Positions 14,852-23,487 of a stretch of 64,000 nucleotides of DNA are shown here, piece after piece; position 1 is the stretch's first letter, and the number at the start of each line of letters is the position of its first letter. The notes under the pieces are model-generated. The model was not told where the DNA came from. It saw only the letters and a list, made by a program, of their open reading frames with translations, and did no database searches. The stretch is from an uncultured Candidatus Actinomarinales bacterium (GTDB taxonomy: Bacteria > Actinomycetota > Acidimicrobiia > Actinomarinales > Actinomarinaceae). Both the position numbers and the translations under genes were made by a program. The stretch is taken from the NCBI GenBank assembly GCA_943840565.1, contig CALSUY010000001.1:310001-374000 (forward strand), given 5' to 3'.

Positions 14852-16408
14852 ATGAAACAATTTACAGGCTTATTTCTGCCGTCTTTCAGAAGCTTCAAAA
14901 GAGCTCTGAAGCGAAGTATCTAAAACTTCAAATTCTAGAGTTAGGTTTATCGACTTTGTAAAAGTTTCTGGTTTGTTGCTAATTATTTTTAATACAAACT
15001 ATTTTCTAGATTTTGAAAAATCAAGTGGAGAATTTATTATTTACAATCGTACTGTTTTAGATAGTTCCTTAACTCCTGTTACTTGGTTGACAGCGGGGAT
15101 GGCTCTATTTTTCTTTTCTACAGGTTTCACCAATAAGATTGCTTGGTATTCAAATGTTGGCAGGGACGGAAGTCAGTGGAAATTTTTGACAGATAGGGTG
15201 GATGGATTGATGGGATCTGTTCTTGTTTGGATCTTCTTCATTACAGTGTCTTTGAACGCAGCAACAGAATTAATTTATTTTCCTAAGTATATTACAAATC
15301 AACAAGATGGCATTCTCACTGTCACAGAATTTATCATGTGGCCATTATGGCTTGTGTCAATTTATTTAGTAGTTGTATTGTTTTGTCCACTAACGATATA
15401 TCTACATAAAAAGAATCCGTATTTAACTCTTTCTTTTTTGATATCTAGCTTGGTGTTAATAGACAATATTGAATTCAATTTATCTCTCTCGTATATAAAG
15501 CTGTTTAATTATTTAGATTTTTTGGTTAACAATACACCAGCTAGGTTATTTTCTAGCCGATGGAAAAATCTTTGCATTCAGAAAATCGTTGTTTGCAGGA
15601 ATAACATTTTTTTCTTACAGCTATCTATCTTATATTCACACAACAACAGAACAGTATTTATCAGTTTCGAATTATCGGTTACTTTCTTTTTCAAATGAAG
15701 ACCCTCCAACCACTGTATATTTAATTTCATCTATAGGGCTAATTTCACTCTTTCTATTATTTCGTGATCAAGTCGAATCTTTATTAAATAAGAAAATCAT
15801 TTGGTCTATCTTCTCGACAATACATGCAAATATTTATACATTGTTTCTCTGGCACGTTGTTTTATTCTTTTTTCATTAGCTATTTTCCAACTTTTATAAT
15901 CTATTACCCACTAGTAATATTTTTAATTATTTTTTGTTTTGGTAATTACGAGCGACAAACTTTTAGACTTTCCCGTTCTTTAATCAAGAGAGTGAATCCA
16001 CTCCAACCATGGCCCACACCAATAAAAGCAAGGTTATCATACAGTAATTTTCTTCTTGCTTGGATATCTTCAATGTTGATTTTGATTGGGATATTGCAAA
16101 TAACTCTTGGTGGTATTGGTTTGTCAGGGTTCTTTTCTTTAAGGCAGTTATATTTGTTTTCAGGAAATACATTTGAAGCATTTGTTAGGATCGTTATTGG
16201 TCTGTTATTACTTAATGTTACGATTAGACGAAAAGATTTAAAAAACCAGTTACTAGTAATTGGTATTCTGTCTCAGATTATTACATTAGTTGTTAGGTAT
16301 CAACTTTATAACTCAGTAACTACACTTGAGCTCTACATGAGTATTTTTTTAATAGGGTTTTTTCTGATACTGATATTTAATAATCGTAACTATAAATCAA
16401 TAGCTTGA
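14852..16408 (+). CDS. Membrane acyltransferase family 3 (several frameshifts)
   Basis: A large multi-pass O-acyltransferase (Acyl_transf_3/OafA-like) split over three frames. The order read is VRFIDFVKVSGLLLIIFNTN (family start R..DF.K...l), LTPVTWLTAGMALFFFSTGF, DRVDGLMGSVLVW, MWPLWLVSIYLVVVLFCPLT, then IHQLGYFLADGKIFAFRKSL in a second frame after a T-run at 15518-15523, and ISYFPTFIIYYPLVIF in a third after the T-run at 15868-15873. A fourth shift near 14915 would link it to ATG 14852. About ten transmembrane helices and roughly 515 residues are expected. Substrate is unknown; cell-surface lipid or glycan acylation is the family role. Confidence 0.72.
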
Positions 16409-17981: not shown

Positions 17982-18755
17982 GTGGAAATTGACAACAGAC
18001 TCGTAATAATTTCATCTGAATCAAAAAAGTACTTAAGCGTAATAACAAAAGGCAAAGAATTCATAACTAATGATGGCAAAATAGAATTTGATAAAATAAA
18101 ATCCCTTCCTACTCAGATTGAATCATCAACCGGAAAAATATTTACAATTTATGTTCCATCTTATAAAGAATTTATTCTTCTTATGAAGAGAGGGCCTCAA
18201 ATAATATATCCCAAAGATGTGGGTTCAATACTCATTTCAGGGAATATAAATGCAAATAGTAAAGTTTTGGAGATTGGTACTGGGTCTGGAGCATTAACTC
18301 TTTTTCTAGCGTCAATTTTAGGTACTAATTCCAAATTTTATTCTTTAGATATCAGTAAAAAAAATCAATATCGAGCTAAAAAGACAATATCACGATATTT
18401 ATCTAATTATTCATCTGATTTTATAAATGATATTCAATTTATTAATACAGATCTGTCTGATTTTAAAATTGATACTGTTCCTTTTAAATTTGATACTGTT
18501 ATTACAGATGTCCCAGAACCATGGGTATTCTTCGAAAATAATCATATAAATAGTAATCTTTACTGGGTTTCATATTTACCCTCAATATCTCAAGTTTCTA
18601 AATTAGCTGACGCCTTACAAGATAATAGTTTTAAAGATATTGAGATTAAAGAGACAATAGAGAGAGAGTGGACCATACGAGGTAATATTTCAAGGCCAAA
18701 GCATACAATGGTTGGTCATACGGGGTTTACAGTTAGTGGAAGGTATATTTTATGA
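17982..18755 (+). CDS. trmI: tRNA (adenine-N1)-methyltransferase TrmI
   Basis: TrmI methylates A58 in the tRNA T-loop. The 257-residue class I methyltransferase has the SAM motif LEIGTGSGALTLFLA near residue 93, an acidic loop YSLDISKKN, the family motif DVPEPW (usual D.p.PW) near 176 and a C-terminal substrate part REWTIRGNISRPKHTMVGHT. The start is GTG 17982. In most Actinobacteria this gene directly precedes the proteasome-associated ATPase; here it is followed by a reverse-strand ferredoxin. Confidence 0.92.
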   Translation: MEIDNRLVIISSESKKYLSVITKGKEFITNDGKIEFDKIKSLPTQIESSTGKIFTIYVPSYKEFILLMKRGPQIIYPKDVGSILISGNINANSKVLEIGTGSGALTLFLASILGTNSKFYSLDISKKNQYRAKKTISRYLSNYSSDFINDIQFINTDLSDFKIDTVPFKFDTVITDVPEPWVFFENNHINSNLYWVSYLPSISQVSKLADALQDNSFKDIEIKETIEREWTIRGNISRPKHTMVGHTGFTVSGRYIL

Positions 18756-18756
18756 T

Positions 18757-19002
18757 TTATGGTTCAATCATTATGCATTCGCCAGGACATTCCTCTGCCG
18801 ATTCAACAACTGCATCTTCTTGACCTTTAGGAACAACAGCTAGGCCTTCAGCACCACCGACATTCCCATTTTCTTCTGAAAAAACTTTATCACCCTCTTT
18901 AACATAAAAAAGGCCATCATCTAATCCGACAAATACATCTGGTGCGATCTCTTCACAAAGGCCATCACCGGTACATAAATCTTGATCAATCCATACTTTC
19001 AT
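18757..19002 (-). CDS. Small acidic ferredoxin (3Fe-4S/4Fe-4S type)
   Basis: The 81-residue protein has cysteines in CTGDGLC near residue 10 and CPGECI near residue 73, with an aspartate/glycine between, a pattern seen in 3Fe-4S or divergent 4Fe-4S ferredoxins of actinobacteria. It is strongly acidic. The same ferredoxin type sits next to the proteasome cluster in other actinobacteria, facing trmI as here. It probably donates electrons to an unknown partner, such as a cytochrome P450. Confidence 0.88.
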   Translation of the reverse strand: MKVWIDQDLCTGDGLCEEIAPDVFVGLDDGLFYVKEGDKVFSEENGNVGGAEGLAVVPKGQEDAVVESAEECPGECIMIEP

Positions 19003-19102
19003 AAGTAGTATTTTACCTTGTTATAGATTTACACAAATCTTCGAATATAAAATTTATATCTAATATTTTGTAAGATACTTATAAAGCTAAAACTAATTAT
19101 TT

Positions 19103-19936
19103 ATGAAAAATGTATTTAAAAGGTGTTTAAAGTTAATCGCTCTTTTCGATAGCTCAAACACATTCAATCTCGATAGTAATTACATAAAAGACAATATACC
19201 CGAGTATCGTAATTTGAATGATTCAGCGTACAAACGATCTTTTGAGAGAGATAAAGCACTCCTAAAAGAGGTCGGGTTCAATTTAGAATATGAAAATGAC
19301 AAATGGAGTGTTGAGGATGGTTATAAGCTTAAAGGAACAAATATAATTTTAGACTTACAAAGTAAATCTGGATTTGACATTGAGAGGTTTATCAACACAT
19401 ATTCTGTTATTAAGAAATACTTATCACCATATTTACAACTCAATAAAGATTTAAAAGTTATACCAATACTCAATACAGCCATAAAGGAGCGGAGAAGAAT
19501 TTCATTTATTTACAATGACAAACTAAGAAAAGTATATCCTTTAGGCCTGAGGTTCCATGCTGGAATATGGTACCTGGGAGCAGATGATGGAAATATTGTT
19601 AAAACATTTAAAATAAACACTATAGAAAATCTAAAAATAGGTAACAAAGAGAATCTTCACACTAAAAATATTTCAGAGTTTAACTTTTCATGGGAAAACA
19701 TGTCAAGTTTTATTACGGTCGAGATAATTTCAGATAACGACTTACATAGAGTGCACAGTAGGATTTTCAATTTTACTGAGGTCTCTTCGAAGGAAAATGA
19801 AGAAAATATTACCATAAAATTAAAAACGAATGATCATCATGGCTTAATCAAGTACTTACTGTTGGTTGAGCCAAAATTACTAAATATAAATAAGCAAGAC
19901 AAAGAGGCACTAAAGCGAGCTATAAATGGAATTTAA
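19103..19936 (+). CDS. pafB: WYL-domain regulator, PafB-like
   Basis: A 277-residue protein with an N-terminal winged-helix region (about 1-80) and a WYL-type domain (IKERRRISFIYNDKLRKVYP and LGLRFHAGIWYLGA with the W-Y-L core). It overlaps a second WYL protein by 11 bases. In mycobacteria the PafB-PafC heterodimer is a transcriptional activator of the LexA-independent DNA damage response. The pair here occupies the expected place before tatA-tatC. I see divergence (no canonical PafB alignment can be run), so the symbol rests on pairing and context. Confidence 0.8.
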   Translation: MKNVFKRCLKLIALFDSSNTFNLDSNYIKDNIPEYRNLNDSAYKRSFERDKALLKEVGFNLEYENDKWSVEDGYKLKGTNIILDLQSKSGFDIERFINTYSVIKKYLSPYLQLNKDLKVIPILNTAIKERRRISFIYNDKLRKVYPLGLRFHAGIWYLGADDGNIVKTFKINTIENLKIGNKENLHTKNISEFNFSWENMSSFITVEIISDNDLHRVHSRIFNFTEVSSKENEENITIKLKTNDHHGLIKYLLLVEPKLLNINKQDKEALKRAINGI

Positions 19937-20747
19937 AATAAACCTAGGTAATATAATTCACATTCTTTCACTTATTAAAAAAGAAAGATCATTTAACTTA
20001 GAAGACTTAGCAGAAAATGTTAATTTAAGCTCCGACAAACTGTTGTATTCATTAACAATCTTATCGGAAGTGTACTCTTCAGATGGCGACAGCTTTATAA
20101 ACTTTGAAGTAAATTTGGAAAAGAATGTCATTACCTTCGAGTTCAATGAATCTCTAGCAAGTATCCCTACAATTACTGATCTAGACTTATTTAAAATATA
20201 TACAGTTCTAAATAATCCTAAGATAAATGTTGAAAAGTTATTTGACAATAAGTCAGATCTTATTTACCTATATAACACACTAAATAATTACTTTAAATCT
20301 CACCAAAGTGCAGCAAACAGTGCCAAACTTGACTTTAATAGAGTGTTTGTATCCGATGAACTGTATATAGAGTACATTAAATTAGGGCACAATATTTCAA
20401 ATATCTATAAAATTAAGCCATTATCTTTCAATATTACAAATGATGGAGATGTTCTTGAAGCGTATGATTATGAAGACGACAAAATAAAAAGTTTTTTAAT
20501 AGAAAGAATTGTTAACTTTCCAGAGGAAAAAAGTCTTAAAGAAAGATTTTCAAAAAATGATAATAAGATTTCAGTTACCTATCAAGACCTAGCATTAAAA
20601 AGACATCAACAGCATTTCCGTTCAGAAGAAATAGCTGTAGAGCATTTCCTAAAGAATATAGATTCACAAAATGTTATTGCTCCAAACTCCGTTAGAGTTG
20701 AAATTGAAAAAAGAAAAAATAAATTGATTGCTGAGTTTTTATCATGA
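19926..20747 (+). CDS. pafC: WYL-domain regulator, PafC-like
   Basis: The 273-residue partner of the previous gene. An N-terminal helix-turn-helix region (SFNLEDLAENVNLSSDKLLY) is followed by a diverged WYL domain in which the W-Y-L triad is weak (NIYKIKPLSFNITNDGDVLE and KSFLIERIVNF). PafC-like proteins form the DNA-binding/sensing partner of PafB. It overlaps the tatA-like gene by four bases. The symbol is assigned mainly from gene order. Confidence 0.72.
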   Translation: MEFKINLGNIIHILSLIKKERSFNLEDLAENVNLSSDKLLYSLTILSEVYSSDGDSFINFEVNLEKNVITFEFNESLASIPTITDLDLFKIYTVLNNPKINVEKLFDNKSDLIYLYNTLNNYFKSHQSAANSAKLDFNRVFVSDELYIEYIKLGHNISNIYKIKPLSFNITNDGDVLEAYDYEDDKIKSFLIERIVNFPEEKSLKERFSKNDNKISVTYQDLALKRHQQHFRSEEIAVEHFLKNIDSQNVIAPNSVRVEIEKRKNKLIAEFLS

Positions 20748-20923
20748 GCATTATTGAATTACTAGTTATAGTCCTAATCTCTCTTGGTATATTTGATAAA
20801 AGCAAAATTTTATATTACTTTAATAAAATCTCTAAATTCCAAAATGGGCAAAGTCGCCAAATAATTGGAGATAATTCAATTGATGAAAATTGGATCTGGC
20901 TAAATGAAAATGAGGAGGAATAA
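20744..20923 (+). CDS. TatA-like twin-arginine translocase subunit (diverged, short)
   Basis: A 59-residue protein from ATG 20744 to TAA 20921-20923. The N-terminal membrane helix (MSIIELLVIVLISLGIF) followed by DKSKILYYFNKISKF has the position and shape of TatA/TatB (family: f.elliilviallvFGPkKLpel.r.lGk), but the FGP motif is replaced by FDK. The tail is acidic. It lies between pafC and tatC, exactly where tatA stands in other Actinobacteria, and is overlapped by both neighbours' signals. I infer TatA; a very diverged or non-functional form is possible. Confidence 0.6.
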   Translation: MSIIELLVIVLISLGIFDKSKILYYFNKISKFQNGQSRQIIGDNSIDENWIWLNENEEE

Positions 20924-20924
20924 T

Positions 20925-21626
20925 ATGAAAAAACCATTCATGGAGCACCTTCAAGAGTTAAATAACAGAATATTATTTTCTTTTACTTTAGTTGGGATAG
21001 TTGCAATATTTGTATATAACCAGTACTCATTTTTTGGTGATATTTTATTAGAACCTCTCATAAATGCTGGATATGATGACTCTAATATATTTGCATTAAC
21101 AATCTATGAAGGTTTTCAAGTAAAGCTACAGAATACTTTTTGGATATCCATAATTATTACATTTCCATTAATACTTTTAATATTAGGTTATTTCGTTAAA
21201 CCAGCTTTAGAGATAAGAACATTAAGCTTTTCGTTATATTTCATCTTCTTTACTCTCTTATTTTATTCAGGTATATTTTCTTCACTAAGTATTGCTCATG
21301 TCGGTATTGAGTTCCTCCTTTCATTTAATGAGAATGAAATTATTTTAAGATCTCAAAACTATTTTCAGTTCATAACGAGAATTTCTTTGTTATTTGGAGT
21401 TTCATTTCAATTACCATTAATCATGCTTTTTCTCCTTAACAAAGGAATAATAAAGGTAAAGAGCCTAACCAATAAACGGGCTGAAATGTTTATAGTCATA
21501 CTTATTTTTTCAGCAGTAATAACACCAACGGGTGATCCTATTTCGCTTTTTATCTTCACTCTCCCTATGTATTTACTCATAGAAATAATGATTTTTATTC
21601 ATAAAAAAAGTAATCGTGAATTTTAA
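20925..21626 (+). CDS. tatC: Sec-independent protein translocase TatC
   Basis: TatC is the twin-arginine signal receptor. I choose ATG 20925 (233 residues), which follows the strong ribosome site GAGGAGG at 20912-20918, rather than an earlier in-frame ATG at 20904 inside the tatA-like gene. The start KKPFMEHLQELNNRILFSF is the diagnostic TatC N-terminus (F..HL.ELR.R). Six hydrophobic helices follow, with FGVSFQLPLIMLFL and ITPTGDPISLFIFTLPMYLL (usual TP.D...q..l..P). It overlaps helY by 11 bases. Confidence 0.95.
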   Translation: MKKPFMEHLQELNNRILFSFTLVGIVAIFVYNQYSFFGDILLEPLINAGYDDSNIFALTIYEGFQVKLQNTFWISIIITFPLILLILGYFVKPALEIRTLSFSLYFIFFTLLFYSGIFSSLSIAHVGIEFLLSFNENEIILRSQNYFQFITRISLLFGVSFQLPLIMLFLLNKGIIKVKSLTNKRAEMFIVILIFSAVITPTGDPISLFIFTLPMYLLIEIMIFIHKKSNREF

Positions 21627-23487
21627 TTTAGATAAATTTCAGGTTGAGGCAATTAACTCTATTAATAAAGATTTTAATGTATTAGTCGTTGCACCTACGG
21701 GATCAGGAAAAACCTATATAGCCGAAAAAGCTATTGAAAAATATACTAACCAGAACCAAAATGTAATTTATACGACACCCATTAAAGCATTATCGAATCA
21801 AAAATATAATGATTTCACAAATTTGAACATTGATACTGGATTGCTCACAGGAGACAGGACCATCAGCCCAGATTCAAATCTTATTGTTGCCACTACTGAA
21901 ATATTAAGAAATATGATTTATTCAGATGACAAAAGATTAAAAAAAATTGGACTCATAGTCCTTGATGAAGTTCACTATCTATCTGATTCCGAGCGAGGCA
22001 CAACTTGGGAAGAAATAATTATTCATGCCCCAAAAAATATCAAGTTTCTTTTTCTATCAGCGACTATTAGAAATAAAGAAGAATTCCACAACTGGATAGT
22101 TTCATTAAGAGGAAAAACATCATTGGTGTACTCCAATATAAGGCCCGTCCCACTAGAAATATCCTTAGTTGGTTTAAACCCTCACAGTGAGCAATTAAAA
22201 ATAATTAAATCTTCAAAAGATAAGCGTAATAATAAAATCTTTAAATTTGAAAAACAATATAGAAAGTACAAGAGACCTCATCTAGGCTTTCAACTTGACT
22301 ACCTCGAAAGTAAAAACCTTACACCTTCAATATTTTTTTATTTTTCAAGAGATAGAGTTGAAACAAAAGCTAGACAGGCAGCGACAAATAGAAATAAAAT
22401 TAAAAAAGCAAATGAGATTAAAGATGTTTTTAATGATGTTTTTAGTTCCCTAGATTCAACTCAATATGATCTTTTAAATTTGGATGAACTACTGTGGATG
22501 TGGGTAAGGGGAATCGGATATCATCATGCGGGGCTTGCACCTATTGTAAAAGAATTTATTGAATTTTTATTTCTAAATAGATATATAAAATATTTATTTG
22601 CCACAGAAACACTATCACTTGGTCTCAACCTTCCTGCGAAATCTATTGTTATCGATAGACTTTACAAATACGATGGAATAAAAACACGATTAATCAATCA
22701 ATCAGAATTTCTACAATTGACTGGGAGAGCAGGAAGGAGAGGGATTGACACAAAGGGATTTGCATTTATAAATTATGACAGAAATATTGAAAATTTTTGG
22801 TATAACAACTTGTTTACCCTCAAGTCAAGTAATTTAAATTCTGCATATTCGGTCTCGTATTCTTCAATATTGAATATGTTAAGCAAATACTCACTAAAGC
22901 AAGCCATAGAACTCCTTGAAAAAAGTTTCTTTTCTTATCAAAATAACTTCAATATCAAAAAGCTTCAAAATACATTTACATCCAAGCTCGAAGTCCTTGA
23001 GTTGTTAAATTTCAAGAATGACAATAAGAAATCCATGGTTTTAACTGAAACCTATAGGGATAATCTAATCGTCGGACTTGAATTACTAGAGAGTGATTTT
23101 GATAAAGATATGAATTTCTACTTGATGCTTGTATGCTCTGGTTTATCCACAACCAGGCATGACTTGTCCCTTAATGAGTTGTATGTGGATACATTCATTA
23201 AATTTCAAATTATGGAGGAAAAGATTAATAAGATGGAATCATTTGCAGGGGTGAAAAAAATAACTTCAATTGAAATTGGTTGGTTCAGTATTTTTAATGA
23301 ATATTTGCAATCTGAAGACGTTGAATCAGTATTATCTAAATTCAATATCAGTATCGGTGATTTTATTCGTGCTGGTAAGGAAGCTTCTGAACTCTCAACT
23401 AAACTCTTTAATATATATCGTATTAAGGAATTTAAAATGATTACTGATATTTTTAATGATGAGTTAATCCAGAAATCTATGCGATGA
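21616..23487 (+). CDS. helY: Ski2-like DEAD/DEAH-box helicase (HelY type)
   Basis: A 623-residue superfamily 2 RNA helicase. Motifs in order: Q-like LDKFQVEAINSI, Walker A APTGSGKT near residue 25, TTPIKALSNQKY (Ia), LDEVHYL (II) near 114, LFLSATI (III), YHHAGLAP (IV), FATETLSLGLNLPAK (V) and QLTGRAGRRGID (VI). The HelY/Mtr4 family usually has about 900 residues; the C-terminal arch and helical parts are shortened here. The start is GTG 21616 within the tatC end. Its place after tatC is conserved in Actinobacteria. Likely role: RNA turnover or ribosome maturation. Confidence 0.92.
   Translation: MNFNLDKFQVEAINSINKDFNVLVVAPTGSGKTYIAEKAIEKYTNQNQNVIYTTPIKALSNQKYNDFTNLNIDTGLLTGDRTISPDSNLIVATTEILRNMIYSDDKRLKKIGLIVLDEVHYLSDSERGTTWEEIIIHAPKNIKFLFLSATIRNKEEFHNWIVSLRGKTSLVYSNIRPVPLEISLVGLNPHSEQLKIIKSSKDKRNNKIFKFEKQYRKYKRPHLGFQLDYLESKNLTPSIFFYFSRDRVETKARQAATNRNKIKKANEIKDVFNDVFSSLDSTQYDLLNLDELLWMWVRGIGYHHAGLAPIVKEFIEFLFLNRYIKYLFATETLSLGLNLPAKSIVIDRLYKYDGIKTRLINQSEFLQLTGRAGRRGIDTKGFAFINYDRNIENFWYNNLFTLKSSNLNSAYSVSYSSILNMLSKYSLKQAIELLEKSFFSYQNNFNIKKLQNTFTSKLEVLELLNFKNDNKKSMVLTETYRDNLIVGLELLESDFDKDMNFYLMLVCSGLSTTRHDLSLNELYVDTFIKFQIMEEKINKMESFAGVKKITSIEIGWFSIFNEYLQSEDVESVLSKFNISIGDFIRAGKEASELSTKLFNIYRIKEFKMITDIFNDELIQKSMR

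Follow-up and report, generated by a model that had tools for sequence, protein, structure and literature searches.

The stretch of DNA analysed here, 64,000 nucleotides in length (the window; G000:C1:310001-374000), comes from a metagenome-assembled genome (MAG) of Candidatus Actinomarina, class Acidimicrobiia (640 kb in four contigs, 70.6% complete), and includes the locus at which relatives in the class carry the genes of the Pup-proteasome system. Those genes are missing from it. We consider it probable that Candidatus Actinomarina inherited the system and then lost it stepwise at this ancestral locus, with the tagging machinery and the ATPase going first. Taken by itself, the window shows that a known system was lost in one lineage; of greater interest is a relative, G065 (INTERMEDIATE; 87% complete, 1% contamination), which is the sole genome of the genus with a match to the 20S core and has only Bpa beside it.

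The ancestral locus in Candidatus Actinomarina

The locus in the window is composed of the following features.

17982-18755, plus strand: TrmI (tRNA m1A methyltransferase, GCD14 family; PF08704, E 2.2e-16), left flank of the ancestral Pup-proteasome locus
18757-19002, minus strand: single-cluster ferredoxin (Fer4_15, PF13459, E 4.3e-15), conserved left flank
19003-19102, no strand: 100-bp gap; arc, dop, pup, prcB, prcA and pafA occupy the corresponding place in class relatives
19103-19936, plus strand: PafB orthologue, winged helix-turn-helix and WYL domains (WYL, PF13280, E 4.9e-10; PDB profile matches)
19926-20747, plus strand: putative PafC orthologue, strongly diverged (position and predicted fold); 11-bp overlap with pafB
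20744-20923, plus strand: tatA-like small open reading frame (ORF), 59 aa
20904-21626, plus strand: TatC (PF00902, E 1.1e-38; TIGR00945, E 4e-31, under the curated cut-off)
21616-23487, plus strand: HelY-type DEAD/DEAH helicase (PF00270, E 8.6e-29), right flank

A first-pass annotation had read trmI, a ferredoxin, two WYL genes, a tatA-like gene, tatC and helY in this order without proteasome genes between them. Both the order and the genes as named stand, with the correction that the ferredoxin lies on the minus strand and the qualification that tatA is a name by position only: the ORF in the window has no match to the Pfam TatA family at E ≤ 1, and an ORF of 55–61 aa occupies the same position in the remaining genus loci that were read that far. 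The 100-bp gap between ferredoxin and pafB has no room for any of the missing genes.

We compared 42 genomes of the genus (51 to 94% complete), which in this collection makes up the whole order. TrmI, ferredoxin and PafB are found in the same order in all 31 genomes in which PafB was detected, and the complete order from TrmI to HelY is present in 23 of 24 loci of one set, the exception (G104) stopping within pafB. Ferredoxin adjoins pafB in 30 of the 31, where the called ORFs are no more than about 113 bp apart; the exception is G065, in which prcB and prcA lie between. Because the order recurs in every PafB-bearing genome, the gap is neither a chance arrangement nor a local assembly gap. The remaining 11 genomes have no PafB match. 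Nine of these also lack a HelY match, that of G143 is weak and to a different long ORF, and that of G151 is a C-terminal fragment, so that most or all of the locus is absent from these assemblies. In G005, at 94% completeness, neither PafB nor HelY was found; its near-complete assembly either misses the locus or comes from a genome that lost it.

A search of the complete genomes with profiles had been proposed in the first-pass annotation, and it agrees with the reading of the locus: no Pup, Pup ligase/Dop or ARC was found above curated cut-offs in the 42 genomes, and no 20S subunit (PF00227) in 41. For Pup, a single stray match (E 0.04) fell within a 409-aa open frame. The ARC profile (TIGR03689) gave sub-threshold matches in 37 genomes of the genus and some match in every one of the 14 control genomes. 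In G065, the sole genome in which this was checked, the match of about 150 bits is FtsH, and matches at E ≤ 0.001 are to FtsH and ClpX only. The MAG of the window has no match to Pup, PafA/Dop, ARC, PrcA or PrcB. Genes that have moved, or that were lost in incomplete assemblies, could in principle have been missed, and the completeness values given above leave some room for this. We nevertheless regard it as very improbable, as none of the eight genus genomes at ≥90% completeness has a ligase, Pup or 20S match and in 30 of the 31 genomes the assembly runs through the ancestral place and shows it empty.

Distribution of the block in the class and phylum

The flanks in the window can be taken as those of the ancestral locus because class relatives have the block between the same genes. 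Twenty-seven class loci were read; they were taken around ligase matches and are therefore ligase-bearing by choice, and some of the stretches end at contig ends. ARC, Dop, PrcB, PrcA and PafA are present in all 27. TrmI lies upstream in 24 (not detected in three), PafB lies downstream in 22, and ferredoxin was detected in 21, always on the opposite strand. A HelY-like ORF is found at the corresponding end in 12, many stretches stopping short of it. Between Dop and PrcB of one locus (L091), inspection by eye showed a Pup ORF with GGQ at its end. Synteny within Acidimicrobiia, a comparison also proposed in the first pass, thus places the block mostly between the same flanks.

Pup ligase/Dop (PF03136) was searched for in 395 genomes of the class and matched in 342, which leaves 53 without a match: the 42 of the genus and 11 others. 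Expressed differently, the ligase is present in 342 of the 353 class genomes outside the genus and in none within it. When only class genomes at ≥90% completeness and ≤5% contamination are counted, it was missed in 9 of 268, namely eight members of the genus and, by elimination, G020. An alternative in which the lineage never had the system, its flanking genes standing together for another reason, would account for the lack of a ligase in all 42 genomes and for a patchy phylum, in which 216 of 396 genomes have no ligase match. It is highly improbable in light of the class counts and of the block found between the same flanks, and the prcBA genes of G065, which occupy the exact slot, already refute it unless they came by transfer. 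These patterns indicate that the block was lost in the genus, and loss accounts for them better than primitive absence. The first-pass annotation had offered a clean loss or an original absence; the loss is supported, but it does not appear to have been one clean excision lineage-wide, as G065 keeps prcBA and Bpa.

The phylum sample consists of 396 genomes requested at ≥90% completeness, to which the window's own MAG was added; G065 is not in it. Since absence of the ligase is common in this sample, the state of the window is ordinary at the level of the phylum and unusual only within the class.

Some class genomes outside the genus also deserve mention. Ten of the 11 without a ligase match are also without PF00227, and the eleventh, G360 (60% complete), has a partial match to it. 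G020, a member of family f12 rated 100% complete, has no Pup-ligase or 20S match and appears to represent a complete loss that occurred independently in a different family. In another class relative, a 697-aa ORF (L089:15664-17757, plus strand) matches PafB at the place where PafB and PafC are expected, which suggests a natural PafBC fusion.

A 20S core and Bpa in G065

In G065, prcB (248 aa) and prcA (213 aa) sit exactly between ferredoxin and pafB. Ferredoxin and prcB are separated by 60 bp, the two prc genes share 1 bp, and there is no gap between prcA and pafB; with this spacing, arc-dop-pup is missing to the left of prcBA and pafA to the right. Profile searches of the genome found no Pup ligase, Pup, Dop or PafA and no ARC over cut-off. 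Among the ORFs of contigs C1-C53 (906,347 bases; 2,940 ORFs of at least 40 aa), none of those of 40–119 aa ends in GGE or GGQ.

Both subunits pass their family models (PrcB, TIGR03690, 207.4 bits with a cut-off of 191.9; PrcA, TIGR03691, 244.1 bits with a cut-off of 139.05). The catalytic Thr1 is intact: residue 40 of PrcB aligns with residue 1 of mature chains, and the Ala that precedes it is also found in four class relatives. The motifs DRRAT, VVKVY, GSGS and DSAT, which surround Asp17, Lys33, Ser129, Asp166 and Ser169, are intact in the alignment. PrcA keeps the lysine at the activator-docking position K52 of Mycobacterium tuberculosis (Mtb).

Bpa (PF10759, E 9.9e-45) was detected in one of the 42 genomes, and this is again G065. 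The protein is 142 aa in length, ends in RPGQYL, scores 150.8 bits with a cut-off of 29.5 and matches Bpa in the PDB (1.1e-33); it is the sole ORF among the 2,940 to end in QYL. The 14 control genomes gave no match and offer no positive control for this search. According to a review, Bpa strictly co-occurs with prc genes across Actinobacteria (PMC8223512).

The bpa gene lies on a different contig from prcBA. This contig has a tetranucleotide signature ordinary for the bin, its larger housekeeping proteins have no second copy there, and it is the only place in the bin with candidates for SecA, glucose-6-phosphate isomerase, adenosylhomocysteinase and SmpB, all four named by reading the sequence and not by family search. 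For the majority of the genes on this contig, 464 kb of G000 gave no match. Its membership in the bin is thus argued from composition and single copies, which is weaker than an argument from synteny.

Two trees were built, one from TrmI, PafB, TatC and HelY and the other from PrcB and PrcA. In both, an identical set of seven class relatives groups with the genus or G065 (support 100). This agreement bears on a scheme in which one deletion in the ancestor removed the block in a single step and the prcBA and bpa of G065 arrived later by transfer or as contamination of the bin. The presence of both in only 1 of 42 genomes is what such a scheme predicts, and the scarcity of G000 matches on the bpa contig is compatible with it. 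It would, however, require re-insertion between ferredoxin and pafB exactly and in operon order, a PrcBA history that happens to agree with that of the flanks, and two events, as bpa is on another contig, one that carries single-copy genes of the bin. We consider it improbable.

That the 20S of G065 is a dying relic without function is unlikely, if somewhat less so. The ATPase, tag and ligases were not found, and one docking arginine of PrcA is replaced; against this, neither prc ORF is interrupted or unusual in length, in a genome with a G+C content of 31%, the catalytic motifs are intact, and a Bpa with GQYL is kept elsewhere in the genome. PrcBA has also diverged relatively less than its flanks. 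The ratio of PrcBA to flank distance is 0.56 from G065 to the outgroups (n = 14, range 0.50–0.61) and 0.88 among the outgroups (n = 91 pairs, range 0.42–1.14); with three flank genes the values are 0.59 and 0.97. We read these ratios as a rough sign that PrcBA of G065 may be relatively constrained.

Proposed order of the losses and comparison with known systems

From this combination of genes we infer an order of events. Pup, its ligase PafA, the depupylase Dop and the unfolding ATPase ARC/Mpa would have been lost in a first step that left prcB-prcA in place. The core would then have run only with Bpa, independently of ATP and of a tag, with the C-terminal GQYL opening the gate of the alpha-ring, and G065 would be a present-day example of this stage. 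Other lineages, including that of the window, would subsequently have lost prcBA and bpa to arrive at trmI-ferredoxin-pafB-pafC-tatA-tatC-helY. PafBC would have been retained throughout for transcriptional activation upon DNA damage, a job that, in this proposal, needs no proteasome. On balance, and with some reserve, we favour the fuller picture in which the proteasome of a living lineage is PrcBA driven by Bpa alone, with neither tag nor ATPase, and in which PafBC outlived the system in the genus with its pocket for sensing single-stranded DNA (ssDNA) rebuilt.

Three points weigh against stepwise loss through such an intermediate. The intermediate state is known from one MAG, 87% complete and in 53 contigs. 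Its PrcA has Lys at the docking-pocket position R26 (Mtb numbering), where all 19 aligned class PrcA sequences have Arg. The position of G065 in the genus also matters: if it is basal, one later loss of 20S and Bpa suffices, and if it is nested, two or more are needed. The best tree is nested, and nested placements have p-AU (approximately unbiased test) values of 0.16–0.69. G065 as sister to all other members is not rejected by this test (p-AU 0.063), but bp-RELL (bootstrap proportion) and c-ELW (expected likelihood weight) exclude it (both 0.025).

With the actinobacterial locus arc-dop-pup-prcB-prcA-pafA-pafB-pafC, the genus shares the flanks and gene order seen in class relatives and keeps pafB-pafC at the 3′ end. 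None of the six proteasome and pupylation genes was found in the window or in 40 further genomes of the genus, and G065 has only prcB-prcA of the six. Corynebacterium-type loci, as described in PMC3511204 and PMC6466877, have kept the pupylation genes and the ATPase and lost the 20S genes. They resemble the present case in partial, secondary loss at the same locus, and G065 is their mirror image, with the 20S kept and pupylation and ARC not found. In mycobacteria, according to PMC12288473 and PMC4254994, PrcBA is accompanied by Bpa/PafE with a C-terminal GQYL, which works beside Mpa and Pup. G065 shares PrcBA and the GQYL Bpa, and there Bpa appears to be the sole activator.

In the phylum sample, PrcB is over its cut-off in 170 genomes and all 170 have a Pup ligase; G484, which lacks a ligase and matches the PrcB profile at 1.4e-7, under its cut-off, was left out of this count. 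The ligase is matched at E ≤ 0.001 in 180 genomes (179 over cut-off), and ten of these, one of which (G423) matches at only 2.3e-4, lack PrcB, the known direction of loss. A review (PMC6466877) puts the actinobacteria that lost prc genes but kept pupylation at about half of those sequenced, a far larger share than 10 of 180. The converse state of G065, a 20S without Pup ligase, was not seen among the 396 genomes, G065 itself lying outside the sample. The open-licence text of PubMed Central (PMC) yielded no description of a proteasome kept without pupylation and no paper whose title concerns Actinomarina genomes and the proteasome, and the string 'proteasom' is absent from the text of the Actinomarinales and UBA5794 genome papers.

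The state of G065 would thus order the loss in the direction opposite to the known one, in which the 20S is lost and pupylation kept. In mycobacteria the role of Bpa is hard to separate from that of Pup-Mpa, since both share one core. In G065 nature would have knocked out the tagging branch, so that whether Bpa-20S degradation is useful by itself can be tested directly. If our reading is correct, pupylation can go first, although it is commonly seen as what makes a bacterial proteasome worth keeping, and degradation through Bpa is enough for selection to maintain the 20S core. The genus would also allow PafBC to be studied without a proteasome resetting the response.

PafB and PafC

The two WYL proteins had been proposed in the first pass to be orthologues of PafB and PafC, and this is borne out for the first and supported by position and predicted fold for the second. 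The first is securely assigned to PafB by position and profiles. Its best matches in a PDB profile search are 7p5x chain AY and 9fnd chain X (both 2.7e-14) and PafBC 6sj9 (1.3e-8), with CapW next at 0.055, and hhalign pairs it with class PafB at 99.5%.

The second protein is too diverged for sequence profiles. That of the window has no WYL match alone, although of 11 homologues in the genus 8 reach E ≤ 0.1 against WYL (best value 0.00098); a profile search of the PDB gave no match at E ≤ 1; and hhalign pairs it with class PafC at 1.3% (E 0.04), compared with E values of 0.049 for class PafB, 0.015 for genus PafB, and 0.34 and 0.2 for unrelated controls. A predicted model of modest quality (pLDDT 70.3, pTM 0.31) has as its top Foldseek match 9fnd chain Y (1.8e-9; TM-score low, 0.23), taken to be PafC since PafB matches chain X. 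All 29 Foldseek matches at E ≤ 0.001 are structures of WYL proteins, in keeping with the HTH-WYL-WCX architecture of PafC, although with low TM-scores to query length (0.21–0.27). VIA-align rows for the model are mostly generic winged-helix; the PafBC rows (Z 8.4 and 7.8) are distinct only by their length (200 and 201 residues), with a very large root-mean-square deviation (20.6 and 13.2). We have for this reason rested the identity on Foldseek, position and the weak WYL matches, and a very diverged PafC fits the predicted fold best.

The residues of PafB fall into two groups. Its recognition helix is described as F-x-R-x-F-x-R with two strictly conserved arginines (PMC6789036). Both arginines are present in 23 of 23 genus sequences, the first Phe being Tyr in three, and the WY of the WYL motif is likewise kept in all 23 rows. 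According to PMC11804915, the WYL arginines R211 and R214 of M. smegmatis PafB are required for ssDNA binding. There, R211A/R214A in PafB alone abolished this binding completely but reduced survival under mitomycin C only moderately, and PafC R201A/R204A bound ssDNA like the wild type. In genus PafB, Arg is found in none of 23 sequences at the R211 equivalent (Lys, Asn, Ser or Ile) and in none at the R214 equivalent (Lys in three), whereas class PafB rows have Arg in 16 of 16 and 15 of 16, respectively. Two of the 18 class rows exceeded 420 aa and were excluded from these counts. Equivalence was counted on the alignment from the PDB profile search and concerns a functional residue pair that is not part of the family definition. 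At the R201/R204 pair of genus PafC, the second arginine is kept and the first is leucine in all 23.

Thus, the likeness to mycobacterial PafBC as reported in PMC11804915 and PMC6789036 consists of two adjacent WYL-type proteins, the recognition-helix arginines of PafB and the WY, and the difference consists of the sensor arginines and the divergence of PafC. Genus PafBC probably still reads its promoters and may sense differently from its mycobacterial counterpart. The view, expressed in the first pass, that retention of PafBC fits a role independent of the proteasome is supported as an interpretation; as the sensor residues of PafB are changed, retention alone does not mean that the mycobacterial mode of activation was kept.

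Candidate sites for DNA-damage regulation

To look for a PafBC regulon of the mycobacterial kind, we searched for the RecA-NDp promoter motif (consensus TTGTC, 12 bases, TAnnnT). In the window the stricter form TTGTCR has two matches where 1.94 are expected, both within called ORFs, one of them pafB. Upstream regions show no excess of the 12-base spacing relative to other spacings or to the opposite strand, whether in G065 (408 regions; 3 versus 3) or in 464 kb of G000 (239 regions; 1 versus 2). TTGTC is common to 2 of 105 orthologous upstream pairs (p 0.11; rank 514 of 889 pentamers).

A LexA-type box is present at recA in both G065 and G000, and TTTGTCTTA lies downstream of it in both; recA is not among the two pairs that share TTGTC. 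An operon of two genes, a 38-aa Cys/His peptide and a 170–190-aa protein with no Pfam match over cut-off, is conserved in G000 (L218:1252-1815, plus strand) and G065 (C39:30334-30855, minus strand), and a promoter-like element TTGTC...TGTAWATT stands at equal distance in these two distant members. The operon is a possible PafBC target, and as PafBC-type sites this operon and the recA promoter element are suggestive only. We rejected the idea that no damage regulator other than PafBC remains, as a family search finds LexA in G065, with recA nearby, and G000 has a LexA-like ORF, recognized by motif only, and recA.

Other features of the window and its genome

A membrane gene of about 520 codons is broken across three frames at 14910-16402 (plus strand) of the window. 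It is matched in a single frame throughout in four relatives (L063, L064, L066 and L083), one of which has a HelY 99% identical to that of the window, and it is one ORF in G065; the split reflects either sequencing errors in the MAG or a fresh pseudogene. Second copies of pafB and helY, 100% identical to those at 19103-23487 on C1, lie at G000:C4:3849-8230 and represent a redundant contig or a strain duplicate. HelY of the window shares 99% identity with its counterpart in Actinomycetota bacterium bin97s and 98% with the one in uncultured Candidatus Actinomarina AG-313-L19. In 23 genomes of the genus HelY measures 621–630 aa, compared with 839–991 aa for class ORFs (five loci with an uncut ORF, whose starts may be over-long), and the genus protein appears to be a reduced form.

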